A stretch of 49,069 nt of DNA from a virus. Location: positions 1 to 49,069 of IMG/VR virus record IMGVR_UViG_3300025325_000039. One strand, 5' to 3'. Of this stretch, positions 1,403 through 32,624 are shown in pieces; positions within the stretch are counted from its first letter, which is position 1; every line of letters begins with the position of its first letter. The notes below the pieces were generated by a model. That model was not told the DNA's origin. It did not search any database and was given only the letters and a program-made list of their open reading frames with translations. The position numbers and the translations under genes were made by a program.

Positions 1403-4400
1403 TTAACATCGGCGCGTGACGGGCGGCCACTTCTCCCAGGGCGCCCAGCCCACGTGGATGGGCCACCAGTAGCCCGGCCGGTAGGCGCGCTGAATGCAGG
1501 TGACGAGCACCCATCCATGAGCGGCAGCCTGTGTGCCCGCGACATGGATGGAGACGCCCACGGGTACTCCGACGAGAGTCCCGGTGGCCGCAGGTTGCGC
1601 GCCCGCGAGCGAGCGATAGAGGGTTTGCTGGGCCGCGAGCGTTCCTGTGGGAGATGGCTGCACGCCCGCCAGGTGCCTGCTGATGATCGCGACAGTGAGA
1701 GAGCCCGTGCCCGGAAGTTGCGCGCCTGCGAGGTGGGTGCTTGTGATCTGGACCGAGAGGGTGCCGCTCGGGGCGGGTTGCGCACCGGTGAGGAGTTCGA
1801 ACTCTCGCGTCGCCAGCGTGCTGGATGCGGATGGCTGGGATCCCGAGAGGGAGCGCGACAGCTCCTGATGGATAGCGAGGCTACCCGTCGCTGCTGGCTG
1901 GGCGCCTGCCAGGGTTTCGAAGGTGCCGATGCCGAGGACGCCCGTGGGTGCGGCTTGAACGCCAGAGAGCGAGACGTGCGCGAACGACCAGCTGAACGTG
2001 AGGGCACCTGTGGGGGCGGGCTGGGCGCCGGCAAGGTGCTTCGCGGTGAACTGCGATGCGAGCGCACCAGTCGCGGCAGGCTGCACACCGGCCAGTCGAA
2101 TCCCCGTCCCGATCGAGATCTCGCCGGTGGCGCTGGGTTGAGCTCCGGCTAGATGTTTGGCAGTGAAAAGCGGGACGAGGGCGCCTGCGGGAGCGGGTTG
2201 AGCGCCAGCCAGGGCCACTAGGCGGACCGCAGCCAGAAAGCCGACGGCCGCAGGTTGTGAGCCGGCAACGGCGATATGGACCAGGGGACGGGTGAAGGCT
2301 AGCGTGCCGGTTGACGCCGGTTGGGATCCCGCCAGCGCCTTGAGCCGCCTCTGGGTGAGCGTACCGACCGCAGACGGCTGTACTCCCTCCAGGTGCTTGG
2401 CGGTCACGAGCGCGACGAGAGCACCCGCCGCTGCCGGTTGGCTGCCCGAGAGATGGCGCGATGTGATCTTGAGGGTGAGCGCGCCCGTGGCGGCTGGCTG
2501 CGTTCCCGCGAGGGAAACGGTTGTTCCGACAAAGATCGTGCCGCTGGGAGCCGGTTGGTTGCCCGCCAGATGCTTGCTAATGAACAGTGGCGTGAGCACG
2601 CCCGACGCGCTCGGCTGCTCACCAGCCAGGTGCTTAGCTGTTAACAGGGCCGTCAGGGTGCCGGTAGCGGCAGGCTGGGAGCCGGAGAGTGCGACGAAGA
2701 GGCCTGCCTGAAGCTCGCCCGACGGGGCGGGCTGACTGCCGGCGAGATGCTTGGCCGTGAAGAGCGGAGTGAGAGTCCCCGTGGCCGCTGGTTGTGCCCC
2801 AGCGAGCGCCACGAGGCGAAGAGCCGCGAGCGTTCCTGTGGCCGCCGGTTGAGAGCCTTCGAGGTGCTTCGACGTGTAGAGCGCGATGACCGCACCAGTC
2901 GCGGCAGGTTGGACTCCGGCGAGGTGCTTCGATGTGAACTGGGGTGTGAGCGCACCAGTCGCGGCAGGTTGGGAGCCTGCCAGGTCGACGAAGAGCTTGG
3001 CCTGGACTTCGCCGGTAGCGGCCGGCTGGGCGCCCGTCAGGGTGACCTGAACTGGCCCCGTCTGGGCGGAGATGGATCCCGTGGCCGCCGGCTGGCTGCC
3101 CGCCAGGGCCACGTGAACGAGCGTGCGATCGAAAGCAACCGTTCCCGCCGCAGCGGGTTGCACGCCCGTCAGGTCGATGAAGCGCTTGACGTGAAGCGCG
3201 CCCGTGCCGGCCGGCTGCGCGCCGGCGAGGTGTTTGCTCGTGAACTGCTTGCCGAGCGCTCCGGCGGCTGCGGGCTGAGTGCCGGCGAGGCTGACACTCA
3301 CACCACCAAGGGCGGCCGAGAAGCCGACGAGGCAGCGATCCTGCACCGTCCCTGTCCCAGCCACCGTCGTGAAGTCGAGGTTCACCGTCCGGGAGGCTCC
3401 GGAGGTGAGCGCTTTCATCTTGAAAATGCTTATGGGAGCCAGATCGGCCGTCGCCCACACACATGGTGGCGGCTGGTCATCACCATAGGCGGGATCGGAG
3501 CCCATGCTGCCGTCGTCGTCGTCCTGTAGCCGAACACTCACCCTATCCGTGACGGCCACGGGATCGAAGATGACGGAGCCGATGTAGAACCAGTTGCCGG
3601 TCACGGAGGGCGTCACCGAGAAGGTGGCCTCCGTCTCCCAGCTGCCCCCCCCGCTAGGGGCATCGGCGGCCGCCGTATACACCCCAGCATGCTGACTGAA
3701 CTTGTTCAGGCGGATGGCGACGATGGCTGTACGTGCCACATCGAAGGCGTTCGTACCTGCATGCGACATGCGCACTGAGATGGTGTGAGATGCTGCCGAG
3801 AGCGCGGGGAAGTATCTCGCCATCAGCCAGGCCCGTGTCTCGTCCCCGGCCGACGTATCCTCGCCTTCCATGCGCGTGGCGGGAGCAGTGGCCCCCCCCA
3901 CGCTCTCGTGGATCTGAGCCTGAATGGCCTGGCCCGCCGCGGCGGATCTGGCGATTAGCTCGTGTACGGCGCCAATGACCAGCCAGTCGTCCGTTCCGTT
4001 CGGCGTGAACGTGACAGCGGCCTGAGCGGTTGGGGTGGTCGTCGTGGTGTAGTCGGCTGTGACCTCGTTCCAGAAGAAGTCCGTATTCTCGGTGAAGTCA
4101 TCACTCAGCTTGAAGGCGAAAAGTTGCGACCAATCGCAGGTCGCAGTGGTCACTCCCTCTGTACCGATTTGCAGCTTCACCAGCTCGGTAGTTCCCGGCT
4201 GAGTGAAGCGATACATGTAAGCGATGATGTTGCCGTTGTCGGCTGCGTCTAAGTCGTAGCAGGCATCGCCATCTGTGAACACGGTAGGAGTGGTGCCGTG
4301 TACGAGTCGGGCGTGGTACTCGGCAGACCCGCTCGAGAAGCGTACCGCCGCGAGCGCGATGATCAGGTACTCTTTGTTCGCCGTGAACGATCCAGCCGCG

Positions 4401-4486
4401 ATGCTGGCGCAGTCAGTCCAACTCCCTGCGCCAGTTGCGGTGAGATCGCTGACCGTCTCCGCGTAGAGCATCTGGGCGCTGGTCAT
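1403..4486 (-). CDS. Repeat-rich tail/fibre-like protein, 1027 aa
   Basis: Residues 1-~395 form a beta-rich N-terminal part, apparently made of related sandwich-like units (GSW...YLIIALAAVRF near 21-50; GSWETEATFS...NWFYIGSVIF near 281-307). Residues 400-~991 are 30 consecutive degenerate copies of a 19-22 residue unit with core LAGxQPAATGxL, often closing with LFTAKH. The last 36 residues are Trp/Pro-rich (YWWPIHVGWAPWEKWPP). Its place after the tail-tip genes fits a fibre or appendage that extends from the virion. The repeats probably fold as a beta-solenoid or a string of small beta units. No enzymatic motif seen. A surface-binding role is inferred. Confidence 0.75.
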   Translation of the reverse strand: MTSAQMLYAETVSDLTATGAGSWTDCASIAAGSFTANKEYLIIALAAVRFSSGSAEYHARLVHGTTPTVFTDGDACYDLDAADNGNIIAYMYRFTQPGTTELVKLQIGTEGVTTATCDWSQLFAFKLSDDFTENTDFFWNEVTADYTTTTTPTAQAAVTFTPNGTDDWLVIGAVHELIARSAAAGQAIQAQIHESVGGATAPATRMEGEDTSAGDETRAWLMARYFPALSAASHTISVRMSHAGTNAFDVARTAIVAIRLNKFSQHAGVYTAAADAPSGGGSWETEATFSVTPSVTGNWFYIGSVIFDPVAVTDRVSVRLQDDDDGSMGSDPAYGDDQPPPCVWATADLAPISIFKMKALTSGASRTVNLDFTTVAGTGTVQDRCLVGFSAALGGVSVSLAGTQPAAAGALGKQFTSKHLAGAQPAGTGALHVKRFIDLTGVQPAAAGTVAFDRTLVHVALAGSQPAATGSISAQTGPVQVTLTGAQPAATGEVQAKLFVDLAGSQPAATGALTPQFTSKHLAGVQPAATGAVIALYTSKHLEGSQPAATGTLAALRLVALAGAQPAATGTLTPLFTAKHLAGSQPAPSGELQAGLFVALSGSQPAATGTLTALLTAKHLAGEQPSASGVLTPLFISKHLAGNQPAPSGTIFVGTTVSLAGTQPAATGALTLKITSRHLSGSQPAAAGALVALVTAKHLEGVQPSAVGTLTQRRLKALAGSQPASTGTLAFTRPLVHIAVAGSQPAAVGFLAAVRLVALAGAQPAPAGALVPLFTAKHLAGAQPSATGEISIGTGIRLAGVQPAATGALASQFTAKHLAGAQPAPTGALTFSWSFAHVSLSGVQAAPTGVLGIGTFETLAGAQPAATGSLAIHQELSRSLSGSQPSASSTLATREFELLTGAQPAPSGTLSVQITSTHLAGAQLPGTGSLTVAIISRHLAGVQPSPTGTLAAQQTLYRSLAGAQPAATGTLVGVPVGVSIHVAGTQAAAHGWVLVTCIQRAYRPGYWWPIHVGWAPWEKWPPVTRRC
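1514..3289 (-). repeat. 30 tandem ~60-base coding repeats
   Basis: In-frame repeats encoding [L/V]-[A/T/S/E]-G-x-Q-[P/A]-[A/S]-[A/P/S]-x-G followed by ~10 variable residues. Unit length alternates among 19, 20 and 22 codons. The DNA of the copies has diverged, so they are old rather than recently amplified, yet LAG, Q and G positions stay almost invariant. The repeats also produce long spurious open frames on the opposite strand. Confidence 0.85.
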
Positions 4487-4737: not shown

Positions 4738-5679
4738 CTAGGCCTCGGGCGCCTTTGTGATCTCGTACGTATATTCAACGACATCGAGATTGACCACTGC
4801 TTGGCCGCCGGTGAGGCTGCGGTCCATGAGTGCCACTCCCGTCGTGTTGTTGAATACTCCGTGTTCGTTCCAGGTTTCGGTGGTGTCAGCGGTGATGCTG
4901 GCTACGGTGCGGTAGATGGGATCAACGTCGGTGGGGGTACCGGTGGCGCGCGCGATGCCGGTGGTGACGATGAGTGCGGTGTCATTGTTGTCCTCGGCCT
5001 GTGCCGAGGTGCCAACCTCGTGGTAATCGAAGTCGGCATACTCGGTGCCGACACCACTGACGAGCTCGTCAATCTCCTCGCTCACGAATGCGTCGGTCAC
5101 CTTCGCCCCGGAGAGCCAGCCGAGGTCCTCGACGAAGCCCCACTGCCGCGAGGCCAAAGCGACGAGCGCGGCCGGATCAGGCCAGGTGCGCGCCGGGCAC
5201 TGCGGCAAGTCGCAATCGTGCGCGGCCCAGTGGGTCGCGACGAGCGTGGTGAACCTCGGATCGAGCGAAGCATCACGACGGTCGGGGTCGAACGGGTTCG
5301 CCCAGCCGCGATGCCAGTGGCGAGCGTAGAGATCGCCGAACGTCGAGACGTGGAGGTCGTGGCCCAGCACTGCGTAGTAGTAGCGCTCCGAGAAGTGCGG
5401 GGACATGTGTTTGTTGCCCCACTCCAGCACCCAGCGCTGCCAGGTCGTCCGCGGCGGGCCAGAGCGCGCGCCCGGCCGGTAGACGCGGCCGCCGGGTGTC
5501 TGCCGCCACATGTCGCGCTCGAGGAAGTGGGTCGGGTCGGAGATGCGGTCGACGGGGATCGCGAGGGGCTCTCCGCGTTCGGTGACGAACAGTCCGCGGC
5601 GGATCTGGCGAGCATGAGTCGGCTCGTCGAGCGGAACCGCCCGGTAGGGCACGTTGGGATGGCGCTTGGTTGCGAGCAT
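4738..5679 (-). CDS. Phage structural protein, probably tail-tip or appendage, 313 aa
   Basis: The start MLATKRHPNV at 5679 is chosen because AGGAGG lies 7 bases upstream; the ATG six bases earlier sits too close to it. The N-terminal ~200 residues are rich in Trp, Tyr and His (HMSPHFSERYYYAVLGHD; RHWHRGWANPFDP). The C-terminal ~90 residues are a beta-type domain with TSAQAEDNNDTALI, TADTTETWNEHGVFNN and LMDRSLT, a pattern I associate with phage virion proteins of unknown exact role. No enzyme motif is evident. Confidence 0.65.
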   Translation of the reverse strand: MLATKRHPNVPYRAVPLDEPTHARQIRRGLFVTERGEPLAIPVDRISDPTHFLERDMWRQTPGGRVYRPGARSGPPRTTWQRWVLEWGNKHMSPHFSERYYYAVLGHDLHVSTFGDLYARHWHRGWANPFDPDRRDASLDPRFTTLVATHWAAHDCDLPQCPARTWPDPAALVALASRQWGFVEDLGWLSGAKVTDAFVSEEIDELVSGVGTEYADFDYHEVGTSAQAEDNNDTALIVTTGIARATGTPTDVDPIYRTVASITADTTETWNEHGVFNNTTGVALMDRSLTGGQAVVNLDVVEYTYEITKAPEA

Positions 5680-5707
5680 AGTCATGCCTCCTGATCTGGG
5701 CTGCCGG

Positions 5708-5947
5708 TTAGGGCAGGGGTGCCCCGATTGCCTCGGCGGCTTCGCCGAGCAGTCGCACGAGACGCGCCTTGACGTCTCGTGCTTCGTTGAGGACCGCGTC
5801 GAGCGTGGCATCGCCGACCCTGATGGGAGCAGTTGCCAGCCCGACCGCCAGATCGCCGGCGGCCCCGAGCACATCGAGGGCGTTTTCTACGGTGGCATCA
5901 GCGAGATTGATGGCGCCCTTGAGGGCACCGGTGACAATGTCGGACAT
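5708..5947 (-). CDS. Small helical protein, 79 aa
   Basis: Almost wholly Ala, Leu, Val, Asp and Glu (LADATVENALDVLGAAGDLA), predicted helical with an amphipathic middle. AGGAGG lies 8 bases before the ATG. No family recognised. It lies between a structural protein and the lysozyme-like protein. Confidence 0.6.
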   Translation of the reverse strand: MSDIVTGALKGAINLADATVENALDVLGAAGDLAVGLATAPIRVGDATLDAVLNEARDVKARLVRLLGEAAEAIGAPLP

Positions 5948-7492: not shown

Positions 7493-7740
7493 CAGTTGTG
7501 CACGATCTTGCCGAGCACGATCCATGCCCCCCCGCCTGTAAGGTCCAGCATCAGCACCTCGTCGTCAGCGATTACCGTCACACCGCCCAGCTTCGGGTAG
7601 CTCTGGCCGTCCGCCGTCGAGAATCCCAGGCGCCGCACGGATACCTGATCGGTATCGTTCCCCGTCACGATCGCACGGATGAATCGGGCCCGGTGGTTCT
7701 CGTCCACCACCCGCGTGATGGCGTCATGGATCGTGGTCAT
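7492..7740 (-). CDS. Small beta-barrel (OB-like) tail protein, 82 aa
   Basis: The start overlaps the tail-hub stop by four bases (ATGA). After a short helix the protein is beta-rich with regular turns (RAIVTGNDTDQVSVRRLG, GGVTVIADDEVLMLDL, GGAWIVLGKI). This resembles the OB-fold unit of tail hub/spike proteins, and the position just after the hub gene agrees. Family assignment is inferred. Confidence 0.55.
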   Translation of the reverse strand: MTTIHDAITRVVDENHRARFIRAIVTGNDTDQVSVRRLGFSTADGQSYPKLGGVTVIADDEVLMLDLTGGGAWIVLGKIVHN

Positions 7741-9170
7741 GGCGTCACCGTTCGGAGCGTGGCAGCCTGCGCTCGACCGATTCGATGGACCATCGTCGTC
7801 CCAACCTTCATTGAGAGCGACCAGCCGAACACCCTCCATTTGGTCGAGTCTTCGACGCCGGCGATGGTAAGAGTATATGTCTCGTGTCCGGTACGGCGCG
7901 GGTCGAACATGGTCACGAGTCTGGCTGGCTGACTGGAGGCGATGGCATGCCCGAGCCAAAAATCCGCGATGGCTATGAGTTCATCGCCCGAGGGGGCCGA
8001 CTCCTCCGCCCGCTGCTCCAGGATGATGGGCTGGTTCGCGGTCGAAATGCGCACGTTCGGGTCGTAGTTCTCCCGGATGTAGCCGGTCGCGTCCTGGCGG
8101 GCGTCGGACCAGTAGGCGTTGACGCGATTCGGATGCCGGCCCTGTGTCCGCTCTCGGCGGAAGGGCGCCACGATCAGCCGCGGCTCGGCCAGCGTCGTGT
8201 AGGCGACGTCCGGGAATTCATCGGCGGGCTTCAGGCGCTCCCGCGTACGCAGCGTGCCGCGAGCGTCAGCGTAGATCGGGTAGTGATTGATGGCGCGGAG
8301 GAGGTTATTGACGACGTCGAGCCGAGATGCCTCGGGCGGCCAGGTGCGGTCAAACGGTAGCACGCGATCATCATCGGGCAGGTCATGACGTAGCGGGAGC
8401 ACGGCTCCGACGAAATCCGGGAGGGTGACCGCGTCGATGACCGCCCTGGCAGCGATGATGATATTCGTGTTGGCATCCACGGTGTAGGGGGCACCCAGGC
8501 AGGAACGATGGAGGTGCACGACGACGTCGGCGCCATCCGCATCGAGGATCGTCGTGAACTGAGGCGGATCGGAGTCGACCACGGTCGAGAGCGGGTCGCC
8601 GGCGGGGCTGAACTCCTCATCGTTGACGTCGAGCCGGAAGAGGCCGAGAGGAAAGAGGAGCTGTCCGCCGCCCTGGATGAACGATGCATTGATGGCTACG
8701 TGGTCGCTCTCGGGATCGAACGTGGCCGGGAGTAGGCGCGGGTCGATGGAGAGCCGCGCCGAGCGCGTGATCAGGCGGTCGTTTTCGAGCTCCACCGACG
8801 CCGCAAACACAGAGGGCGTGATGTCAGCGATGAAATTGTAGCGGTGATCTCTCCACTCGTAGACGAACTGGAGAGAAACGACGGAGGCCGTAAGGTCCAA
8901 CTCGGGAGTAGGAGCCTCGACGTCGAAACTGGTGTCCGTGGGGTTCGCAGCGCCATCGTAGACGCGGATGGAGCGCGTGTTGGTGACGCCCTCGACGATG
9001 AACGTGTCCACGACGACGAGGGTTTCGACGATGGCATCGGTCGCGCGGCCGCTGGCGATGACGTCGCCCGCGCCGGCAGCAGCGTTCCGGATTTCGTAGA
9101 ACAGCTCGTCGGTGTCGGTGGAGCGCGCGTCGTGCGGCGTGAATGTGAGGGTATAGGTCCGGGTGGCCAT
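7737..9170 (-). CDS. Tail-tip hub / minor tail protein, 477 aa
   Basis: A beta-rich N-terminal Ig-like region (~1-90) is followed by a hub-like part with FVYEWRDHRYNFIADIT, a conserved-looking helix SRLDVVNNLLRAINHYPIYA, RTRERLKP, then HPNRVNAYW. This combination is typical of siphophage tail-hub proteins (gp27/Tal-like, often annotated minor tail protein), which close the tail tube and carry the fibre proteins. It is preceded by the lectin-like protein with a one-base gap and followed by coupled tail genes. Confidence 0.7.
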   Translation of the reverse strand: MATRTYTLTFTPHDARSTDTDELFYEIRNAAAGAGDVIASGRATDAIVETLVVVDTFIVEGVTNTRSIRVYDGAANPTDTSFDVEAPTPELDLTASVVSLQFVYEWRDHRYNFIADITPSVFAASVELENDRLITRSARLSIDPRLLPATFDPESDHVAINASFIQGGGQLLFPLGLFRLDVNDEEFSPAGDPLSTVVDSDPPQFTTILDADGADVVVHLHRSCLGAPYTVDANTNIIIAARAVIDAVTLPDFVGAVLPLRHDLPDDDRVLPFDRTWPPEASRLDVVNNLLRAINHYPIYADARGTLRTRERLKPADEFPDVAYTTLAEPRLIVAPFRRERTQGRHPNRVNAYWSDARQDATGYIRENYDPNVRISTANQPIILEQRAEESAPSGDELIAIADFWLGHAIASSQPARLVTMFDPRRTGHETYTLTIAGVEDSTKWRVFGWSLSMKVGTTMVHRIGRAQAATLRTVTP

Positions 9171-13938: not shown

Positions 13939-16900
13939 TTACCTGGCGCCAGCCAGGAACGCCTCGCGCCCCAGCTGTCGCGCTATTACATCACGCATCC
14001 GACGCTCGATGGCGGCCGCATTGTCCTCGGGTGAGCCAGCAAAGCTCGAATACCGCATGTCCGCGACGACGGAGACCGTGCTCGTCGACCGCTGGTCCGG
14101 CTGGCTGAGCTGGATCAGCGGGACGCTCGTGGGCATCGTCCAGCCATGCGCGGGCACGATGCCGCTCGCGCGCAGAATCTCGGCGTAGGCGCGCGGGATG
14201 ATGGCCTCGCCCTCATGGATCATCGCCAGCTGGTCGCGTGGCACGTACGGCGTGCCGATGGCGTAGCCCGTGACGCCGGCCTGATGCAGGAGGTCAGCCC
14301 GCAGGAAGGCGGACATCCTCGCGAAGTCGGCGTAGGTGACGACTCCGCCACCGGGGAGAGTGAGGGAGGTCGCCTGGCCAGTCATGCCGACCTTGTTGGC
14401 CAGTTTGACCCACTGCGCATCCAGGGTGTCCGCCGTGGCGGCTGCCGTGGCGGCTCCCTGTGCTGCCTTGAGGGCCGTAGCACGATCATCAGCGGACATC
14501 GCGTTCCACTGCTCCCAGGTCAGCGCGGAGTTCGGAGCGAGCGAACGAAACAGTGCGAAGTCGGCGTCGGACTGGGAGCCACCGGTCATGACAGCCGTAG
14601 CGCCCCCTCCGCCCGTGCCCGCCGGAACCACTTTGATCTGGGACGCCAGTTCCTGGAGCCGCTGTATGGAGGTCGCCGTCGAGATGAGTCCGTTCTGAAG
14701 ATCCGTCAGGATGCGGGTGACTGCCTCAGCGATTGATGGAGCGATAGCGTTCACGCCATCGAGGACTGCCGTCAGTCCCGATTGCACCAGGAGTCCGACT
14801 TCGGTAGCGATGTTCGCCCCGGTGAGCCGGAAGGTATCCACGATGACCTTGAGTTCATCCGCCAGGAGGACTGTCTTGGTCTTGGCATCGTAGATGCCTC
14901 CATCAAGAACGGCGCCGACGTCGCGCATGACCTCCTCGAAGGCCGCGATGGCGTCGGGCGACTTCTCGTCGACAGCGCGCGCGAGGGCGTCCATGAAGTC
15001 TCGGCCGAGGGCGCTGGCGTCTTCGGGGGGCATATCCTCGCGGAGCTGCTCTACGATGTCAGCCGCGTTCTCGGACACCGTGGCGAGCGCGTTCTTCCCG
15101 CCGTCTTTGAGGGCCTTGTCCAGAGTGTCCATGAAGCGCGCGCCGGCCTTGCCGAACTCGAGCTCCGCAGCCTTCTGAGCCTCTCCCTCGGCGATAGCGC
15201 CAGCTATGCCTCGCATGAGGTTGTCGCCAGTCAGTTTGCCGGCGGCCTCGATCTTGTCCTGGTTCGCCTGAATCGCGCCGGTAACGGCCGAGAGCGCTTC
15301 GAGGGCGGCCTGCTGGGCCTCCGGAGTACGTTCGGTGAGGGCGCGAGCAAAGGCCTCCATGAGATTCGAGCCCAACGCTTCGGCGTTGGGAATCTCATCT
15401 TCTCGGAGCTGGTCGAGCAGATCATCGATGGCGCGTGCGGCATTCTCGCCTGCGCGGGGGCTGTTGGTTCTGATGGCCTCGCCCAGGGCATCGGCCGCCT
15501 TGGCGCCCGTCTCTCCGAACTGCTTGACCAGCCCTTCGAGCTCAGGTGCGAGAGCCTCGCGGAAAGCATCGATGGCGCTTTGGGCTGAGTCCTTGAGTGC
15601 TTTGCCGGCGCCACCTCCGGCGCCACCACCACCGAGATTCACGGTCCGCGTCGGAGTGGTAGGGCCGGTCGGGGCAGCGCCCGCTACCGGTCCTGTTATC
15701 AGATCCCACCAGGCAGCGCCCGGCTGAGCAGCGATGATATCGAAGAAATCGGGGCCATGGCCCGGCAGTTGAGGTAGCACCGGCATCTGCGGCATATGGG
15801 ACAGGTCGAGTGCCGCCCCCGAGAGCCCGACCAGGGATGCCTGTATCTGATTCGCGAAGCTGATGACCTGCTGCCCGAGAGCCTGCATCCTCGCAAGGAG
15901 GCTCGGCGTCTGGTTCGAGATTCCCATCTCGATCCCCTGCACGATGGCCTCGCCCACGGGGATCATGCTTAGCGCGGGACTGCTGACGCCGAGAACACGT
16001 CCCGGCAGGTCCTTGAGGTCCTCTAGCCGATCCTCGAACCAGTCCGTGAAATTGTCCCAAGCTCCCGCGATGCCGTCCTTGATGCCATCAACGATGGCCT
16101 CCCCGATTCCCGTGAACCAGTCGTAGACGTCCCCCGGGAACGCGATGGCCCAGTCAAATATGCTTTGGGCAAAGTCGCCGACAGCTTGCAGGGCGTCATC
16201 GAGCGCTTCCGCCACGGATTCCGCCGCATCCCAGACGGCGGCGCCAAAATCGCCCACTGCGCGACCAGCATCCTCCACTGCGCCGACAGCACTGGCAACC
16301 GCTCTCTCCGTGGCCCAGAATGCCGCCTTCAGGTCATCCCAATGTCGAATGATCTCGATGGTGGCAGGGATCATGCCGAAGCTGACGACACCCGCCAGAA
16401 TTTCCAGCCCCAGCTTGAACTGGTCGGCGTGCTCGCGGACGAAGTTGATGGCATCGCCCATCCTGTGGAAGGCCTCGACTGCCCCACCTGCCAGGGCCTC
16501 CAGAATGGTGGCCGTCGTGTCAAACCACTCGTATCTCTCCCGGAGTTCGTCCCATTTCAGGATGAGGTAGGTGATGCCCGTCGTGATGGCCACGGTTGCC
16601 AGCAAGGCTGCCGTGAACGGGTTCACGAGCGCGGCGGCGAGCGCGGCGGCTGTGTAGGCAATCGTGGCCGCGGTGACGATCCCGATGGCAATCGCGAAAG
16701 CCTGCACGAGATCCGGATCGAGGGAGCCGTGCAACTCCCCGGTTGCTTCGACCACTGGCCCCAATACCTCAGCCATGGCGAGGAAAGCCGGCCGCCACGT
16801 CTCGCTGAGGTAGTTGATGGCGTTCGGCAACTCGTCGGCGAGGAAATCGGCCAATGCTGTGAGCGCCGGCGCGAGGACGCTCGTGAACTGAATCCCGAGC

Positions 16901-18006
16901 GTCTCGATGGTTCCCGTCAGCCGTTCCCAGGCGCCCGCGAGATTGTCGGTGCGCTGGCGAGCGATCTCGGCCGCGTCCGAATTCTTCATGGCGTCGGACA
17001 TCGAGACGAACGCGTCTTGTCCCATCTCCATGATGCCGATGGCCGTACGCATCGCGTCTCGGCCAAAGATGGTCTGGAGAGCCTGAGCACGTTGCTCGTC
17101 GGAAAGTCCCGTGAAAGCCGTCTTGAGGATGCCCGCAATCTGGGAGAGCGGCTTCATCTGGCCCTGAGCATCGAAGAACGCGAGCGAGCCTTCTTTGGTT
17201 CGGAGGCCGAGGCCTTCCATGGCATCTTTCGCGGCGTCCGTGTTCGGGATGAGCGTGTTCAGAAACTGCTTGAAGGACGTGCCAGCGTCGGATCCCGACT
17301 GAAAGAACTTGGCGGTCCCCGCGATGGACGTCGAGAAGTCAGCAAAGCTAATCCCCGCCGCCGCAGCAGCGCCACCGCCTTGCGCAATCGCCTGCGACAT
17401 GTCGTCGACGTCGAACCGCGAGACGTTGGCTGCCCCAGCGAGACGGTTGACATACTCCGTCAGGTCTGATGTCTTCGCTCCCCAGACCGCCATCGACGTA
17501 GAGACGGTGTCCGCAGCCTGAGCGAGATTGGTGCCACCAGCCGCCGCGAGGTTCGCGGCCGCATCGGCCGCCCCGATCATGATGTCCTCGGCGCTCAAGC
17601 CCGCCTGAGAGAGGATGACCATCGCGCCCGAGACCTCGCGGGCCGAAAACATCGTGTCCGACCCGATGCGAAGTGCTGTCTCCCCCAGGCCGTCGAGTTG
17701 ATCCTTTGAGGCGCCAGAGACGGCCGCTACCGCGGAGAGATTCTTTTCGTAGGTGGCGAAGGCCCCCACGCTGCCGGAGAGGGCCGCCTTGATTCCACCA
17801 ATTGCGAGTTGAGCGGCGCCGAATCCGAGAGCCGTGCTAGCGATCTGTCTGCCGAAGGATGTGAATCCACCACCAGCCGCCGCGGCCTGCTGCCCTGTCG
17901 CAGCAGTCGCCTGCTGCATGCGCTTGAGGTCGTTGAGATAGCTGTTGAGTCCTTCGACGACGGCCTGGACGCCAGCCTTCTCCAGGGGCACGGAAACCTC
18001 CGGCAC
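13939..18006 (-). CDS. Tape measure protein, 1355 aa
   Basis: Residues ~75-400 match the TP901-type tape measure core (YEKNLSAVAAVSGASKDQ, REVSGAMVILSQAGLSAEDI, FGRDAMRTAIGIMEMGQDAF). Several hydrophobic segments follow (for example AALAAALVNPFTAALLATVA), then long Ala/Glu/Asp/Leu helices. The C-terminal part has GTPYVPRDQLAMIHEGEA, the usual end motif. It spans the tail lumen and sets tail length; by the common rule of ~0.15 nm per residue this implies ~200 nm. The helical region near residues 840-1100 contains a diverged internal duplication. The gene lies after the tail chaperones, as expected. Confidence 0.93.
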   Translation of the reverse strand: MPEVSVPLEKAGVQAVVEGLNSYLNDLKRMQQATAATGQQAAAAGGGFTSFGRQIASTALGFGAAQLAIGGIKAALSGSVGAFATYEKNLSAVAAVSGASKDQLDGLGETALRIGSDTMFSAREVSGAMVILSQAGLSAEDIMIGAADAAANLAAAGGTNLAQAADTVSTSMAVWGAKTSDLTEYVNRLAGAANVSRFDVDDMSQAIAQGGGAAAAAGISFADFSTSIAGTAKFFQSGSDAGTSFKQFLNTLIPNTDAAKDAMEGLGLRTKEGSLAFFDAQGQMKPLSQIAGILKTAFTGLSDEQRAQALQTIFGRDAMRTAIGIMEMGQDAFVSMSDAMKNSDAAEIARQRTDNLAGAWERLTGTIETLGIQFTSVLAPALTALADFLADELPNAINYLSETWRPAFLAMAEVLGPVVEATGELHGSLDPDLVQAFAIAIGIVTAATIAYTAAALAAALVNPFTAALLATVAITTGITYLILKWDELRERYEWFDTTATILEALAGGAVEAFHRMGDAINFVREHADQFKLGLEILAGVVSFGMIPATIEIIRHWDDLKAAFWATERAVASAVGAVEDAGRAVGDFGAAVWDAAESVAEALDDALQAVGDFAQSIFDWAIAFPGDVYDWFTGIGEAIVDGIKDGIAGAWDNFTDWFEDRLEDLKDLPGRVLGVSSPALSMIPVGEAIVQGIEMGISNQTPSLLARMQALGQQVISFANQIQASLVGLSGAALDLSHMPQMPVLPQLPGHGPDFFDIIAAQPGAAWWDLITGPVAGAAPTGPTTPTRTVNLGGGGAGGGAGKALKDSAQSAIDAFREALAPELEGLVKQFGETGAKAADALGEAIRTNSPRAGENAARAIDDLLDQLREDEIPNAEALGSNLMEAFARALTERTPEAQQAALEALSAVTGAIQANQDKIEAAGKLTGDNLMRGIAGAIAEGEAQKAAELEFGKAGARFMDTLDKALKDGGKNALATVSENAADIVEQLREDMPPEDASALGRDFMDALARAVDEKSPDAIAAFEEVMRDVGAVLDGGIYDAKTKTVLLADELKVIVDTFRLTGANIATEVGLLVQSGLTAVLDGVNAIAPSIAEAVTRILTDLQNGLISTATSIQRLQELASQIKVVPAGTGGGGATAVMTGGSQSDADFALFRSLAPNSALTWEQWNAMSADDRATALKAAQGAATAAATADTLDAQWVKLANKVGMTGQATSLTLPGGGVVTYADFARMSAFLRADLLHQAGVTGYAIGTPYVPRDQLAMIHEGEAIIPRAYAEILRASGIVPAHGWTMPTSVPLIQLSQPDQRSTSTVSVVADMRYSSFAGSPEDNAAAIERRMRDVIARQLGREAFLAGAR

Positions 18007-23571: not shown

Positions 23572-23862
23572 TCAAATGCTCCGCGATAGGCGCTCCAGCA
23601 TCAGCGCCAGCCCCGCGACGGCCGCGACCGCGAGAGGCCAGGTCGGCGCATCGAGTCGCAGCCACGCATACGCTCCCGCAGCCGTCCAGACCGACGTACA
23701 GCCGACGCAGTGCAACACACTCGCCAGGGGCAGAGGATTTCCGTCGCGCCAGAGCGCGGCTCGCAACCGCCGAATGGCCTCGAACGGCCCATCGTCCTCG
23801 ACCAAGAGCACGGCGACCCTCCACGCGGCCAGGCCGGCAAGCGCGAGGGATAGCCATGTCAC
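23572..23862 (-). CDS. DUF1360-like membrane protein, 96 aa
   Basis: GTG start at 23862 overlaps the glycosyltransferase stop (GTGA). Two or three hydrophobic segments enclose the family-like features VLLVEDDGPFEAIRRLR and LHCVGCTSVW (C-x2-C-x-S-x-W). DUF1360-type proteins of unknown function occur in phages and sporulating bacteria. As the last gene of the glycosylation cassette it could anchor or assist those enzymes at the membrane. Confidence 0.55.
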   Translation of the reverse strand: MTWLSLALAGLAAWRVAVLLVEDDGPFEAIRRLRAALWRDGNPLPLASVLHCVGCTSVWTAAGAYAWLRLDAPTWPLAVAAVAGLALMLERLSRSI

Positions 23863-26585
23863 GGCTGACGAGTAACCGACGCGAGCTCGGGCGCGGAGCG
23901 AGCCGGCATCGAGGCCACCTGCTCCACCGTGTATCGCGACATGCCCCGCAGGTTCAGCAGCCAGTCGACGTCATCGTTCTTGACGTAGGCCCAGCTGCCC
24001 TTCTTGAAGTAGTACCGCGTGCTCGTCTTCGGGCTCCGGTAGCTGTGCTCCGAGGTCAGCGGGCCATCATAGAGGATGGCCGTGAGTCCGTTCGGCGAAC
24101 TCCCCGCAGGCGCCGCCTGAACGCGTGATTCTGGCGATGGGAGCGAGGTCGACGCTGCCCCCTTGCGACATCCTGAGCAGGCCATGAATCGTTCGCCCCC
24201 TTTCCAGAGTCGGTCCCATTGTCGCAGGATAGCAGCCTTCGAATCCTCGAACGCCGCCATGTTTTCCTCGCGCCGGCGGCCCGTGTACTTCCGATAGGTC
24301 CAGAGCGGCAGCGGAATGCGCGTCGAGCAGTACCCGCGATCCGCGAGCGCGATGTGAAACGCCCAATCCTCCCAGGCCGGCAACTGCTCGTCATAACCGC
24401 CGACGGTGCGCCAGGCGTCGACGGGGATCAGCTGCGTGACGGCGCCGATCTGGCCGATGCGGACGAGCAATTCCGGATCCCAGTCCGGATTCCGGAACAC
24501 CTGCCACTGCCCGGGGCCGCTGGGATCCTCCCAGAAGTCGGAGTACGCCACGATGCCCGGCTGTTTGCGGATGACCTCGAACATGAACTCCAGGCACTCC
24601 GGCTCCAGCATGTCGTCCGCATCGAGGGGCAGGTAGTAGCGCGCCCGAGCAGCGGCCACGCCGACGTTGCGAGCATGGGCGACGCCCGTCCTGCCCTCGG
24701 TCTCGATGATTCTCACCCAGGACGGCAACGGAGCGAGGGATTTGCCCGAATCATTGACTACAATGATCTCCCAGCCCCGGAACGTCTGGGCCTCTACAGA
24801 GTCGACAGCGTCGGTGACGAGCCGTTCGTGGCCCGGGCCGACAGGGATGACCACGGAGAGCGCCGGAGGATCGAGAGATGGTACGGGGGGTATTGACCTT
24901 GTCCCCGCTCCTGCCGGCGCTCTCCGCGAGTCTCCGCCGTGCCAGGGGAACCAACGGTGCCACTGCACGGGAGCCTCGAGACGGGACATGGAGGATTCGC
25001 GGTTGCGATAGATGAGAGTGTCCGCTGTCGTGACCATACGCGCGCGGAATCCGTACGACGCCAGCCGGCACCAGAGGTCCGCATCCTCGGCGGTGCGGCA
25101 GCGGCCCCGATAGCCGCCAGTGAGTCGCCACGCCTCCCGCGTGAACATTGAGCAGTAGGGCATGAGATTCTGCCCGCTGAGTTGCCGTTCCCAGACGAAC
25201 TGCTCGGGCCAGCCGCTGTTGCCAGCCGGCAGATCGCGCCGGTAGACGACGGGAGTCCGACCGTCTTCCTCGGTGAAGCGCACGTTGCCGTAGACGGCAT
25301 GCACCGGTTCGAACTCGTCCGGCCGGCCGATCTTCGGGAGCACGCGTTCGTCGAGGGCCGCGGCCAGGTGCGCGAGCGTGTGGGGCGTGAGTTGATCGTC
25401 AGCATCGAGGGGGATGATGTATCGCCCGCGCGCGGCCGCGATGCCTGTGTTGCGCGCGCCCGCGAGGTACTGGTTCGTCTCGTTGTGAATGACCCGAAAC
25501 CGTTTGTCCTTCGCCGCGTAGGCGTCGGCGATGGCGCCGCAGTCGTCTGGCGAGTCGTCGTCGACGACGACACATTCCCAGTCGGGGTCGGTCTGAACCT
25601 CCACGGAGTCGAGAGCATCGGGCAGGTACTGGGCGAGCTTATAGGCAGTGACGACGATGGACGTCCGCGGGCTCGACTCCTCGGCAGCGCGCCGCTCTGC
25701 CAGCTGCCGGTAGAGGCCCGCGTACTGCGCAGCGGCGCGCTCCCACGACCACCGCGCGGCGGTCTCGCGGCAGGCTGCGGCCATCGAATCTCGCTCCACC
25801 ATCGCCTTCTCAAGGGCTACGGCGAGCGCCGCGTAATCGTGAGGGCGCACGAGGAACCCGTCGACGCCGTCGGTCACGATTTCGGCCGCGCCTCCCCAGC
25901 GCCAGCCAACGACAGGCACCCCGCAGGCGAGCGCCTGGAGGATGGAGACCCCGAAGGTCTCGCGCGCCGTCGAGAGATAGGCGCTCGCGCCCTGATGGAG
26001 CAATGCGGCTTCGGCGTAGGATTTGTGCCCGACGATCGTCACGTTGGGCGCCGCTCTCCCGAACGTAGAGACGAACTGCCGTTCGGGTAGGAGCTTGGCC
26101 ACTTCGTTCATGTGATCCGGATCGCAGACCGGATCCGGACGAGTCTTGTCCCAGAGGATGTAGGCCGGTGACACCGGCCTGCCCTGCCACTGGCTAGCGT
26201 CAATGCCATGCCCGATGACGACGGGATCCCGTGCCGTGTGCCGACGGATGGCGCGCGCTACCCAGTCCGTGGGCACGGTGACCGCATCTGCGGATGTGAT
26301 GGCCGCAAGCACCTCGCGGTTCGCATCGTGGCACCAGGACGGCCACTCGAACTCTGACCAATAGAGCCCGTGGCAATGCGCCACGAAGAGCTTTCGCGGC
26401 CATTTTCGCAGCCACTCTCGCGGCATTGTGATGTGGCAGGCGAGGATGTCGGCGTCGGCGGGATTGCCCACAAGCTGGATACCCTGGGCGGGCAACGAGT
26501 TCTGGAGCCCTTCCACGACCCGACGAACGCCACCCTGGCCATCATCCTGGCCGCGCGCTTCCGGCCACATGTGAACCCTGATCAT
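23859..26585 (-). CDS. Triple glycosyltransferase (GT4-GT2-GT2) with C-terminal phage-type domain, 908 aa
   Basis: Residues 1-300 are a GT-B (GT4-like) unit with ARETFGVSILQALACGVPVV at 207-226, the E-x7-E-type donor site. Residues ~308-545 are a GT-A (GT2) unit: TSIVVTAYKLAQYLPDALDS, VDDDSPD at 341-347, PLDADD at 392-397. Residues ~576-795 are a second GT2: LSVVIPVGPGHERLVTDAVD, VVNDSG, PLDADD at 653-658. Residues 801-908 start MACSGCRKG and contain YYFKKGSWAYVKNDDVDWLL, resembling a small phage structural protein; an AAGGGGG site precedes that internal ATG (24185). It probably adds three or more sugars in sequence. The start at 26585 overlaps the 25-aa peptide gene by ATGA. Confidence 0.85.
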   Translation of the reverse strand: MIRVHMWPEARGQDDGQGGVRRVVEGLQNSLPAQGIQLVGNPADADILACHITMPREWLRKWPRKLFVAHCHGLYWSEFEWPSWCHDANREVLAAITSADAVTVPTDWVARAIRRHTARDPVVIGHGIDASQWQGRPVSPAYILWDKTRPDPVCDPDHMNEVAKLLPERQFVSTFGRAAPNVTIVGHKSYAEAALLHQGASAYLSTARETFGVSILQALACGVPVVGWRWGGAAEIVTDGVDGFLVRPHDYAALAVALEKAMVERDSMAAACRETAARWSWERAAAQYAGLYRQLAERRAAEESSPRTSIVVTAYKLAQYLPDALDSVEVQTDPDWECVVVDDDSPDDCGAIADAYAAKDKRFRVIHNETNQYLAGARNTGIAAARGRYIIPLDADDQLTPHTLAHLAAALDERVLPKIGRPDEFEPVHAVYGNVRFTEEDGRTPVVYRRDLPAGNSGWPEQFVWERQLSGQNLMPYCSMFTREAWRLTGGYRGRCRTAEDADLWCRLASYGFRARMVTTADTLIYRNRESSMSRLEAPVQWHRWFPWHGGDSRRAPAGAGTRSIPPVPSLDPPALSVVIPVGPGHERLVTDAVDSVEAQTFRGWEIIVVNDSGKSLAPLPSWVRIIETEGRTGVAHARNVGVAAARARYYLPLDADDMLEPECLEFMFEVIRKQPGIVAYSDFWEDPSGPGQWQVFRNPDWDPELLVRIGQIGAVTQLIPVDAWRTVGGYDEQLPAWEDWAFHIALADRGYCSTRIPLPLWTYRKYTGRRREENMAAFEDSKAAILRQWDRLWKGGERFMACSGCRKGAASTSLPSPESRVQAAPAGSSPNGLTAILYDGPLTSEHSYRSPKTSTRYYFKKGSWAYVKNDDVDWLLNLRGMSRYTVEQVASMPARSAPELASVTRQP

Positions 26586-26659
26586 TCCGCAAGTCTCCAG
26601 AGCGCCAAGCCCAGCCCGAGAATGACCACGTAGATGATCAGCAGGTCGATGTACCTCAC
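26582..26659 (-). CDS. 25-aa single-span membrane peptide
   Basis: Starts at GTG 26659, overlapping the methyltransferase stop (GTGA). It reads YIDLLIIYVVILGLGLALW with a short RLAE tail and ends inside the ATG of the triple glycosyltransferase (ATGA at 26582-26585). Perfect four-base overlaps on both sides argue that it is translated. It may tether a partner to the membrane or only serve coupling. Confidence 0.55.
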   Translation of the reverse strand: MRYIDLLIIYVVILGLGLALWRLAE

Positions 26660-27204
26660 AGGCTCCCTCCCAGATAGGTACCACCCCAGCCCATTCCCCG
26701 GCGGGACCATTCCGCAAGCGTCCCGCTTGCGATGAATGGGGCCAGTGCCAAGGCCACTCCCGGATAGGCATCGGTGTGATCATGCAACCAGACGGGAGAA
26801 CGAGCGCGCAGCGACGGCAACCAGAGCTTGAGCTCCATCGCTGTATCGGCTTGCTCATGCGAAGTGTCGAGCAGCAGTCCGTCGAAGAGGCAACCGTTCC
26901 GGGGCCCATTGGAGGTGTGCGAGCACCAACTTTCCCAGCGATGGGCCCAGCCGCAATTCTTGACGGCTTGCTCCGTCCAGTTCAGTGCATCCTGGCTTCG
27001 ATCCACGCTCATCACGCGCGTGTCATCCGGAAAACGCTCAAGGATGGCGAGCGCTGTGGTGCCGCTGCCCGCTCCGAGATCTGCCACCCAGCGCGGGCGC
27101 TGGGCTCGCCAGTGTGCCTCGAAGAGAGACTGAATCAGGTCGACATCGTCAACAGTCAGGTACTTGCGGGACCGAGCGAGGTCGCGGGCAGGGGATTGCG
27201 TCAT
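26656..27204 (-). CDS. SAM-dependent methyltransferase, 182 aa
   Basis: The start MTQSPARDLARSRKYL at 27204 overlaps the upstream stop (ATGA) and follows a GGAGG-like site. Motif I is VADLGAGSGTTALAI, with the acidic end of beta2 at RVMSVDRSQ; LLLDTSHEQ and VWLHDHTD follow. The short Rossmann core resembles Methyltransf_24-type small-molecule or sugar methyltransferases. In this cassette it probably methylates a sugar. No DNA-methyltransferase motif. Confidence 0.75.
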   Translation of the reverse strand: MTQSPARDLARSRKYLTVDDVDLIQSLFEAHWRAQRPRWVADLGAGSGTTALAILERFPDDTRVMSVDRSQDALNWTEQAVKNCGWAHRWESWCSHTSNGPRNGCLFDGLLLDTSHEQADTAMELKLWLPSLRARSPVWLHDHTDAYPGVALALAPFIASGTLAEWSRRGMGWGGTYLGGSL

Positions 27205-27878
27205 CGTTGATCCGCCCTCGCCTGGATGCTGCCGATGTGCGCGAACAGGTCTCCCACCGGCCGCAGGTTGAGGGGCCAGAGCACCCGCTGACGAGCGGCA
27301 GGCCGGCCGCACCATTCGCGCTCGGTGCTTCCAGGATCGAGTCCCTCCGTCCATGGCCCGACAGCCCGCGCCCAGCGCACAGTTTCGAGCCGTGGATGGC
27401 CCGCTGCGATGTGATGCTCTGCACTCGTGGGATCGAGATGGAGATAGGTCGCGCCGTCGATGTTGAGGACCTCGGCGCGGAGTTGGGCGAGAAATCCCAG
27501 ATAGCCCAACCTTACGCAGCCCCATCCCTCCCGGAGCGGCCGCACGAACTCCTCGGCGTCGAAAAGTCGGAGACACTCCCAATCGTCCTCAAGCGGCAGG
27601 ACCCAGGTCGACTGAGGATGGATTTGCTGCATGGCCAGGTTGTAGGAGGCACCGTAGCCGCGGCGCTCGCTGTTGCTCGTGCGCACCGGCAGTCCGAACG
27701 CATCGCTTGCCAGGTGCGCCAGACATTGGCGATACTCGTCGGCGCTCCCGTCATCGGCGATATGCACGACCAATCGACTGCTCCAGCGGAGGTATTTCGC
27801 GAGGGACGATATGGTCCGGGCAGCGTAATCCCAACGGTCATAGGTCAGAACGGCCACCCCGAGCGTCTCCTCAGCCAT
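27201..27878 (-). CDS. GT2-family glycosyltransferase, 225 aa
   Basis: A GT-A fold is indicated by LGVAVLTYDRWDYAARTISS, the nucleotide-binding acidic site VVHIADDGSADEY, and LEDDWE as the DxD-like metal site. The C-terminal part is short. The start at 27878 overlaps the kinase-methyltransferase gene by eight bases. Donor and acceptor unknown. Confidence 0.75.
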   Translation of the reverse strand: MAEETLGVAVLTYDRWDYAARTISSLAKYLRWSSRLVVHIADDGSADEYRQCLAHLASDAFGLPVRTSNSERRGYGASYNLAMQQIHPQSTWVLPLEDDWECLRLFDAEEFVRPLREGWGCVRLGYLGFLAQLRAEVLNIDGATYLHLDPTSAEHHIAAGHPRLETVRWARAVGPWTEGLDPGSTEREWCGRPAARQRVLWPLNLRPVGDLFAHIGSIQARADQR

Positions 27879-28956
27879 GAGCAACGCGCCAGACCGTCCG
27901 GCTGGCCCGCCGTCCAACGACGGGAATGGTCACGATGGGCGCAGCCTCGCAGCCCAAACCATTGAGCCAGGATTGAACGGCCTCATCGCTGGGGAGCCAG
28001 GCGGGCCCAGGCCCATCCCCGGCGAGTTGCGTCTCGAAGTACAGGATGCCGCAATCCTGCGCAATCTCCATCAGCTTCGCCTCAGCAGCTGCTCGCCCGT
28101 AGTCGCGCACCATGTAGGCGAACGTCGAGAACAGGAGCACGACGTCGAAGTTGAAAGTGTCCAGGTCCATGATGTTGGCCTGGTCGAACTTGACGGGCAT
28201 GTAGCTCCAGAGCTCTCGAGCGATAGCGATGGAGTTCTCCCCGGTGTGGAATCCGCCCGTATCGATGCCTGAGGCGCGCATGCCCTCGCACGCTGCCGCC
28301 GCCACGAAGTCGCCTTGAAAGCACCCGAGATCGCAGAACGTCTTGCCCTTGAGTGGAAGCGCGAGATCCGTGTGCGCCCCCAGGTCCCGCAAGACGGCCC
28401 GCCATCGGCGCGCTACGCGCGGCGTGTCCCCCACCTCTTGACCATCGGCCGGCCACTCCGCAATCGTGCGAAAGCAGAGCCCCGAATCCGACCATGGTTG
28501 CTTCTGCGGAGCGGGTTCGCCGATGAAGTGTGCCTCCTGGAAGTCGATGAGGTACGGCCAGTCGCGTTTGAGGATGATATTCGACGAGGTCATATCCCCA
28601 TGGCGGACGTTCCGGCTACGGAGCTCCCAGAGCAGGCGGATCATGTTGCGGCGAAACAGCTCGCCATCGAGGGGATGATGATCGGACCGCCCCAGGTCAT
28701 TGGACTGGAAGGCGTAGGCTTTGCCCTCGTGCTCACGCACGACCCCTACCCTCGGAGTCGGAGTCATCCCGGAGCCCGCCATCTCATCCAGAAACCGGAT
28801 GTCGTTCTGGAGCGCCCGCCGGTTGTGCGCGTCGAGCGCCACCTTTTCGATGATTCCGCCAGGCAGGCGGTAGACCTCCATGCCGGCGTGGCCGCCGATG
28901 AGCGGGTACGCCTGCAGTTGAGCGCGATGCGCCGCGACTGCCACTGCTAGGCTCAT
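27871..28956 (-). CDS. Kinase-methyltransferase fusion, 361 aa (WbdD-like logic)
   Basis: Residues ~15-170 are a small-molecule kinase-like domain: catalytic loop HGDMTSSN (119-126) and metal-binding LIDFQ (136-140), as in aminoglycoside/LPS-type kinases. Residues ~200-361 are a SAM methyltransferase with CDLGCFQGDF (208-217) and FNFDVVLLFSTFAYM (268-282). A kinase plus methyltransferase in one chain recalls WbdD, which phosphorylates and methylates the end of an O-polysaccharide to stop its growth, but the domain order is reversed. I infer a glycan-capping role. The start at 28956 overlaps the upstream stop (ATGA). Confidence 0.75.
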   Translation of the reverse strand: MSLAVAVAAHRAQLQAYPLIGGHAGMEVYRLPGGIIEKVALDAHNRRALQNDIRFLDEMAGSGMTPTPRVGVVREHEGKAYAFQSNDLGRSDHHPLDGELFRRNMIRLLWELRSRNVRHGDMTSSNIILKRDWPYLIDFQEAHFIGEPAPQKQPWSDSGLCFRTIAEWPADGQEVGDTPRVARRWRAVLRDLGAHTDLALPLKGKTFCDLGCFQGDFVAAAACEGMRASGIDTGGFHTGENSIAIARELWSYMPVKFDQANIMDLDTFNFDVVLLFSTFAYMVRDYGRAAAEAKLMEIAQDCGILYFETQLAGDGPGPAWLPSDEAVQSWLNGLGCEAAPIVTIPVVGRRASRTVWRVAHG

Positions 28957-29645
28957 GAATACCTCCCCCACCGCGGCGGCTTCCAATCCCGGGTCAGGAT
29001 GTTGCGCGTCTCCAAGATGACGCTCTGCCATGGTCCGCGCTGCGCCGTATCCGTGTCCGGATGCGAGCGGTAGTTGTAGAGCGGAGCGCCGTTCGCGATC
29101 GGGCGCAGGGCGCCAACGTCGGGATGCGTCATCAGGATTGAGATGAGTGCGCTGTCTGGAGCTCCCGATGCCGTCTCGACGGGGAAGCCCCCTGTGCGGT
29201 CCCAGAGGTGCTTGTGAACGACGGCCGCGTTGCACGGCACGGTCTGCGTTTCGCCGCTCTCCATGTAACGCACGCCGTAGTACCAGTACGTGCGTTCCGC
29301 TTCCTGCTCGGGGATCTGATGCGCGGACTCCCACCATGCCTCGATGGCCGTGGGCTCCAGCGTGTCATCTGCACCGAGCATCAGAATCCACGATCTGGAA
29401 GCCAGCGCCACGCCGCAATTGAAGGCGGAGGCCACCCCGATATGCCAGGGGGCACGCCAATAGCGTAGGAGGCTCTCTCGGCGTGGCAGATACTCGGATG
29501 GAATCGGAGCCACGTCGTCTACGATGAGAATCTCGTAGGGATGGGTCGTTTGCGCAGCGACCGAGTCCAGGCATTCCTCGATCCAGCGCTGATGTGCCTC
29601 CAATGGACCGAGCGGAATCACGACCGTCATGGGCGCGGTCGTCAT
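28953..29645 (-). CDS. GT2-family glycosyltransferase, 230 aa
   Basis: The start MTTAPMTVVIPLG at 29645 overlaps the reductase stop (ATGA). GT-A motifs are CLDSVAAQTTHPYEILIVDD and LMLGADDTLEP. The rest has GGFPVETASGAPDSALI, typical of the acceptor side. A single catalytic domain without membrane spans, so probably cytosolic or peripheral. Confidence 0.8.
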   Translation of the reverse strand: MTTAPMTVVIPLGPLEAHQRWIEECLDSVAAQTTHPYEILIVDDVAPIPSEYLPRRESLLRYWRAPWHIGVASAFNCGVALASRSWILMLGADDTLEPTAIEAWWESAHQIPEQEAERTYWYYGVRYMESGETQTVPCNAAVVHKHLWDRTGGFPVETASGAPDSALISILMTHPDVGALRPIANGAPLYNYRSHPDTDTAQRGPWQSVILETRNILTRDWKPPRWGRYS

Positions 29646-32445: not shown

Positions 32446-32624
32446 GTGTCCCCCCGTGTAAGCGCCGAGCAGCGCCGCTGTCCTCTGGGCGGCGATAGAT
32501 CGTTTTGTCAGCGCTGCTCGACGTCGCGCGCACCCTATCACAACCCAGGGGACATAGGGAAGGCCCCCCGGCGAGGTAGTAACCGGAAGGCCTTCCGAGG
32601 CAGCTCCGGGCCGATTGGCTCAGT
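32446..32624 (-). terminator. Intergenic gap with a GGAAGGCC hairpin after the capsid gene
   Basis: The 14-base palindrome CGGAAGGCCTTCCG (32584-32597) lies ~30 bases past the capsid stop. Its GGCCTTCC arm (32589-32596) can also pair with GGAAGGCC at 32558-32565. No T run follows, so a pause, processing or Rho-dependent site is as likely as a terminator. Further on, TGTGATAGGGT and CTGACAAAA are weak promoter-like pieces. The rest holds no gene I can support. Confidence 0.35.

Follow-up and report, generated by a model that had tools for sequence, protein, structure and literature searches.

The window, i.e., the whole stretch of 49,069 nucleotides of IMG/VR virus record IMGVR_UViG_3300025325_000039 analyzed here, contains on its minus strand a gene with an ATG start (1403-4486) that encodes a protein of 1027 amino acids, composed of an N-terminal head (residues 1-393; 3310-4486), an array of 30 short repeat units (1511-3289), and a Trp-rich C-terminal end (1403-1510; YWWPIHVGWAPWEKWPP). 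A second gene on the same strand (4738-5874, conserved part 4741-5679), the product of which ends in LMDRSLTGGQAVVNLDVVEYTYEITKAPEA, is referred to below as the partner gene, and is regarded as adaptor-like on the basis of its co-occurrence with the array and the predicted fold of its homologue in contig L118. The genes for a tape measure protein (13939-18006) and for a tail protein (7737-9170) lie ahead of both, and the array gene is itself followed by a minus-strand gene for an SLT-domain transglycosylase (833-1300; PF01464, E 5.5e-5, above the cut-off), likely a lysin or virion hydrolase.

Besides these genes, the window encodes several other proteins of recognizable type on the minus strand. 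These include a nucleotide-sugar epimerase/Polysacc_synt_2 protein (30469-32541) that is interrupted by an intein-like insert containing a LAGLIDADG endonuclease domain, a 1016-residue protein that combines two GT2 domains with one GT1 domain (23859-26909), and an N6/N4 DNA methylase fused to a ParB N-terminal domain (40601-41803). Further GT2 domains lie at 27528-27857 and at 29316-29588, the latter in a minus-strand gene at 28953-29975, and double-GT2 proteins resembling the 1016-residue protein are present in the related records G006 and G007. At its left end, the contig contains a short tandem repeat rich in GC (2-90), as reported by Tandem Repeats Finder.

The 30 units conform to LxGxQPAATGxL followed by 7-10 variable residues, measure 19-22 residues each, and together occupy residues ~400-1005, unit 1 starting at window position 3289 and unit 30 at 1543. 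Gly at position 3, Gln at position 5, Leu or Val at position 1, and Leu, Val, or Ile at position 12 are found in all 30 units, while Gly10 is found in 29, Pro6 in 27, and Thr or Ser at position 9 in 23. The G.Q pattern has 31 matches in the protein, the one at residue 410 lying outside the units, and the array HMM detects 29 of the units. These counts bear out the initial annotation, which had described a 30-copy LAGxQPAATG array with units of 19-22 residues and invariant Gly and Gln, making up ~58% of the protein (1514-3289 equals 592 codons, or 57.6% of 1027). The Trp-rich cap noted there is present in this protein, but nothing similar was seen on the arrays of relatives that were read. In 684,140 bases of control DNA read in six frames the motif was encountered in 3 open reading frames, once in each, and this rarity rules out a chance origin of the array. 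Assignment of the protein to DUF1720 (PF08226) was rejected; the match reached 21.2 bits against a curated cut-off of 21.4, no stretch passed alone, and the similarity amounts to a low-complexity QPxxTG resemblance. A collagen-like stalk was rejected as well, since Gly is confined to positions 3 and 10 of the units, which contain no Gly-X-Y triplets.

Repetition in the array resides in the protein and not in the DNA. Identical residues in different window units are encoded by identical codons at a frequency of 0.369, versus 0.368 expected from the codon use of the gene, the similarity of units does not decrease with the distance between them, and within the array Tandem Repeats Finder detected no more than two rows, one of 10 bases and one of 60 bases (1.9 copies). 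The same holds for relatives: in 13 of 13 arrays the observed synonymous identity differed by at most 0.10 from that expected, the largest excess being found in L122 (0.458 versus 0.359), and amino-acid identity between units over the first 12 positions was 0.49-0.75. This combination of amino-acid identity and saturated synonymous sites implies strong purifying selection on the units, and the array is old and kept by selection at the protein level, since its codons are randomized and unit similarity is flat with distance. The randomized codons also leave little sign of recent unit duplication, and recent expansion by slippage or recombination was therefore rejected as an explanation of the array. 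The initial annotation had suggested a length adjustable by recombination between repeats, which these data do not support. The comparison of copy number that it proposed did reveal variation, the 13 arrays having 8, 9, 10, 10, 13, 13, 14, 14, 16, 19, 22, 30, and 30 units (counts by a strict pattern, and lower bounds where units are degenerate), but little trace of present-day gain or loss. Array length has changed over deep time, recent change having left little sign. In the array of 30 units in L132 (10789-14565, plus strand), similarity recurs with a superperiod of four units (z 3.0 at lag 4), of which there are hints in L116 (z 2.0) and L124 (z 2.3), among 11 arrays and 4 lags considered.

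The head was modeled with AlphaFold2 from a 12-row alignment, in which residues 1-393 are predicted to be all-beta and mostly with confidence, regions ~181-220 and 311-350 being weaker. Alignment of residues 3-394 with VIA-align identified single-chain C1q, adiponectin, and APRIL-BAFF trimers as matches over 325-346 residues (Z 23-26, 3.5-3.7 A), i.e., 5kca (Z 26.2, 346 residues aligned), 5hzf (24.5), 5hkj (24.4), 4dou (23.7), and 4zch (23.0). The predicted head thus consists of three tandem C1q/TNF-type jelly rolls in one chain; a jelly-roll domain of ~130 residues was confirmed in the model for residues 2-134 (Z ~13), and the three domains are placed in a threefold arrangement. Next in rank come matches to individual domains of TNF-like lectins, BC2L-C and PLTL, at Z ~13; with the exosporium proteins BclA and ExsF/BxpB included, single-domain fold matches (to the N-domain in the case of BC2L-C) range over Z 9.8-13. 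Among BFVD models the best match was a 401-residue Caudovirales protein (E 8e-17), and giant-virus proteins of 373-404 residues (Terrestrivirus, Hyperionvirus) came next for the three-domain head. No C1q/TNF profile was found for the head in Pfam, the head profile had 0 matches among PDB sequences at E 10, and the 1027-residue protein retrieved from the PDB by sequence only 3hiu_A (E 0.92). We therefore speak of a C1q-like fold and not of a member of the C1q family.

According to this model, the head would represent a natural, phage-encoded, single-chain version of the C1q/TNF-type trimer. It has the same three tandem jelly rolls as 5kca and as the engineered single-chain trimers of the C1q and adiponectin globular heads (5hzf, 5hkj, 4dou), with which it shares 8-9% identity. 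The head is probably sugar-binding, glycan binding being what we infer for it. The predicted one-chain pseudo-trimer would bear a single C-terminal chain, which argues against a homotrimeric shaft. A C1q-like knob and a long repeat stalk are also combined in BclA, the stalk of which is collagen-like (Gly-X-Y) and N-terminal, whereas the array in the window is C-terminal and not of the Gly-X-Y type.

Relatives of the array gene and of the head were collected separately. DNA-pattern scans added five contigs (G001-G005) with arrays of the LAGxQPAATG type, two array genes being present in G001; the scan of 76 stretches contained, beyond the window, only four with arrays (L017, L023, L033, and L043), and 48 other records of that scan, ~15 kb or longer, served as controls. 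The heads of the array genes in G001-G005 differ from that in the window and mostly also from one another. Laminin_G_3, in L118 and L130, was the only Pfam family above cut-off on array-gene heads; those in L115, L116, L122, and L132 are other sequences without a Pfam match, and L124, L127, L131, and L146 are nearly headless, the array beginning within about the first 50 residues. In the second array gene of G001 (L115:5360-7027, minus strand) ~90 residues of other sequence interrupt the array.

Protein searches for the head among viral contigs yielded ten distinct contigs, with head homologues at 37-54% identity and with identical proteins in L079 and L157 and in L083 and L162. Behind this same head, the protein ends in SPSAS repeats in L002, in units of ~21-22 residues in L079 (GxYxLxG) and L083, in ~32-residue IDESYDEEHDY units in L081, in ~21-residue FTMLRSTGK units in L156, and in ~900 residues of ~13-residue FTADAHI units in L163 (5989-10755, plus strand); the endings in L080 and L161 have no repeats, and the protein in L084 stops early, at 276 residues. 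The FTADAHI array of L163 is broken up by repeated WSxTWSMDV segments. None of these same-head relatives has the LAGxQPAATG array, as judged with the array HMM for five records and by eye for the rest. Heads have been exchanged in front of arrays, and endings have been exchanged behind one and the same head.

The partner gene accompanies the array and not the head. A partner profile built from five members had matches in 6 of 6 array records, in none of 5 records that combine the same head with a different ending, and in 0 of 48 controls, and in the six array records the partner lies beside the array or within ~2.6 kb of it, adjoining it directly in G000, G002, G003, and G005, with small genes in between in G001 and G004. 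Searches with the partner alone retrieved 20 distinct contigs, 13 of which have an array within ~3 kb, the distance reached in some records. Of those lacking an array, L125, L126, L128, L134, and L135 end 6 to ~1,270 bases past the partner, while L153 and L155 are remote relatives that match only the C-terminal half of the partner and have no LGHDLH half. The partner was found in 0 of 396 and 0 of 398 bacterial genomes of two phyla and in 0 of 4 others, an empty answer that is uninformative by itself. The capsid genes of array-type records are assigned to several PHROGs (major head: 10 near L116 and L118, 267 near L115 and L119, and 212 near L126; portal: 2662 or 113), and array and partner therefore seem to move as a module, the shared ancestry of which may inflate their co-occurrence.

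The AlphaFold model of the L118 partner, computed with 15 relatives, has a pLDDT of 77.7. Its best structural match is the tail chain 9h4p_BD of HFTV1 (953 residues, Z 10.3), followed at Z 6.4-6.9 by the Sf14 neck (9c39), the GP4 fiber-tail adaptor (8jou), the Bas63 connector, the phi812 arm (9fko), and A511 gp105 (6hhk); all matches except HFTV1 remain at Z <8, which could reflect a common arrangement. The likeness to the GP4, A511, phi812, Sf14, and HFTV1 proteins concerns the ~78-244 part of the partner and is not accompanied by any match to these adaptor or arm proteins in sequence. BFVD matches of the model are tail-fiber and tail-collar-fiber proteins. The partner model thus weakly resembles virion fiber adaptors, and "adaptor-like" is meant in this weak sense. 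For 11 of 16 members the C-terminal half matches PHROG 5417, of unknown function (E 3e-5 at best), while the N-terminal half, which contains LGHDLH, lies outside this match.

Unlike these phage adaptors and arms, some partners bear one array unit at their N-terminus. It was found on 5 of 19 partners (L118, L130, L131, L135, and L143), with a degenerate one in L127, and is disordered in the AlphaFold model of the L118 protein. The six unit-bearing partners form one clade (90/95), and confinement to this clade indicates a single event. Position 5 of the partner-borne unit is hydrophobic in L130, L131, and L143 and Gln in L118 and L127, and where the array of the same contig is known it is of the same kind (Gln with Gln; Leu or Met with Trp, Leu, Met, or Phe), an agreement that the tree reduces to one change instead of several. 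A 70-codon open reading frame after the partner in L126 (8798-9007, plus strand) also ends in one array unit, THTQPSATGNLSVKVIRKDAD.

The label "tail protein" given to the array gene product in the initial annotation is uncertain. It agrees with the position of the window gene behind tail genes, but several relatives lie among head genes: in L116 and L119 the partner and the array gene, in this order, lie between the portal gene and the genes for the head protease and the major head protein, and L115, L117, L118, L126, L130, L131, and L132 have a portal, protease, terminase, or major-head gene in the stretch.

No earlier description of these proteins was encountered in the sources covered. A tblastn search of array gene and partner against 50,697 phage records gave nothing, annotated phage records had no match for either apart from two weak partial hits, and family searches, including Pfam and PHROG, returned no named family spanning the whole array or the whole partner. 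The literature search, from which subscription papers and preprints were mostly outside coverage, found no description of the array or of a one-chain C1q-like phage trimer; it turned up PMC12494034. An adaptor with a repetitive appendage and a binding head is a known kind of structure, and what is new is the form seen here.

The shape of the array can be read in more than one way. The "long solenoid or stalk" of the initial annotation is possible, but AlphaFold (12 rows) gave the array a pLDDT of ~30-53, about 40, with short strands only and no confident fold, so that for one unassisted chain the prediction gives the disorder that the initial annotation had named as evidence against its reading. 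A rigid beta-solenoid rod, in which each unit forms one coil or rung and the partner adds an end rung, would suit the regular spacing of 19-22 residues and the two-residue step between the commonest lengths (among 217 units in 15 arrays, 47 of 19 and 126 of 21), a step suited to strands. Position 5 is moreover uniform per array in a ladder-like manner (Gln in 29 of 29 units in the window, Trp in 12 of 14 in L130, Leu or Met in 15 of 17 in L131; for these position and length counts only windows of 17-24 residues were taken as units), and the single partner-borne unit resembles its own array at this position (L118, L127, L130, L131, L143). However, besides the low pLDDT, adjacent units have no general excess similarity: among the 15 arrays only L131 is clearly above shuffles (3/500), and L117 and L132 are below them (6/500 and 3/500), which leaves such a rod as a possibility that we hold tentatively. 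The disorder-like model would rather fit a flexible chain in which each of the 30 units is a docking peptide able to bind one partner molecule, forming a multivalent, partner-coated stalk, as would the strict co-occurrence of the two genes and the single unit that tags some partners and ends the L126 open reading frame. Yet the model does not place the unit at the N-terminus of the partner in a docked position on the body of that partner, only 5-6 of 19 partners have one, and no binding pocket was identified, and we consider this chain rather unlikely.

Other readings concern the composition of the array. With Thr or Ser at position 9 of most window units, this Thr/Ser/Pro-rich array could receive sugars from phage glycosyltransferases, and would then shield the virion or make it sticky. 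GT2 domains are present in the window (4), G006 (4), G007 (2), and G002 (1, borderline), i.e., in 4 of 11 related records versus 1 of 48 controls above cut-off, and the glycosyltransferase genes of G006 directly follow the head gene. However, 7 of the 11 records have none, including 4 of the 6 with arrays, and those in the window are ~20 kb from the array gene; sugar acceptance is improbable, and as a general function it was rejected, GT2 genes being limited to 2 of the 6 records with arrays. That the units are low-complexity filler, persisting by drift and without specific function beyond spacing, could be argued from the other low-complexity tails that substitute behind the same head and from the two same-head proteins that lack any, but this is very improbable in view of the strong purifying selection in 13 of 13 arrays and the co-occurrence with the partner gene.

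The explanation favored here, to which we assign a probability of about 0.5, is a two-gene virion appendage, consisting of an adaptor and a repeat stalk with exchangeable N-terminal heads. The N-terminal binding head would sit on a stalk, located C-terminally and made of 30 short, beta-prone units, and the end of this stalk, rather than the head, would belong with the neighboring adaptor-like protein, because the array is common to phages with different or near-missing heads and the partner is present in every array record. Both products would be virion components in contact with each other, with the partner acting as the adaptor. The array, and not the head, co-occurs with the adaptor gene, and for this reason we favor a stalk that is anchored at one end, its array side facing the adaptor and its head pointing outward. 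In classic phage tail fibers an adaptor gene likewise neighbors a gene whose product combines a repetitive stalk with a binding domain, but the polarity proposed here would be the reverse, since the variable head is N-terminal and the conserved, putatively virion-linked repeats are C-terminal; moreover, the predicted head is a one-chain pseudo-trimer. Beyond this two-gene appendage, it is conceivable, although we would not expect it, that the proteins represent a new class of freely recombining appendages built from separate head, stalk, and adaptor cassettes, with a natural single-chain-trimer head in the window, a C-terminally anchored stalk, and an adaptor that in one clade bears a repeat unit, attachment to the virion being achieved by addition of this unit to the stalk.

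The near-identity of the repeats in protein combined with fully diverged codons indicates long-term selection on each unit instead of repeat turnover. If the predicted head fold is true, it would provide a natural one-chain C1q-like trimer, a form that protein engineers built by hand. Moreover, a repeat family tied to one adaptor family would constitute a directly testable docking system, and, if the two-gene appendage is right, phages would assemble attachment appendages from swappable modules with reversed polarity.
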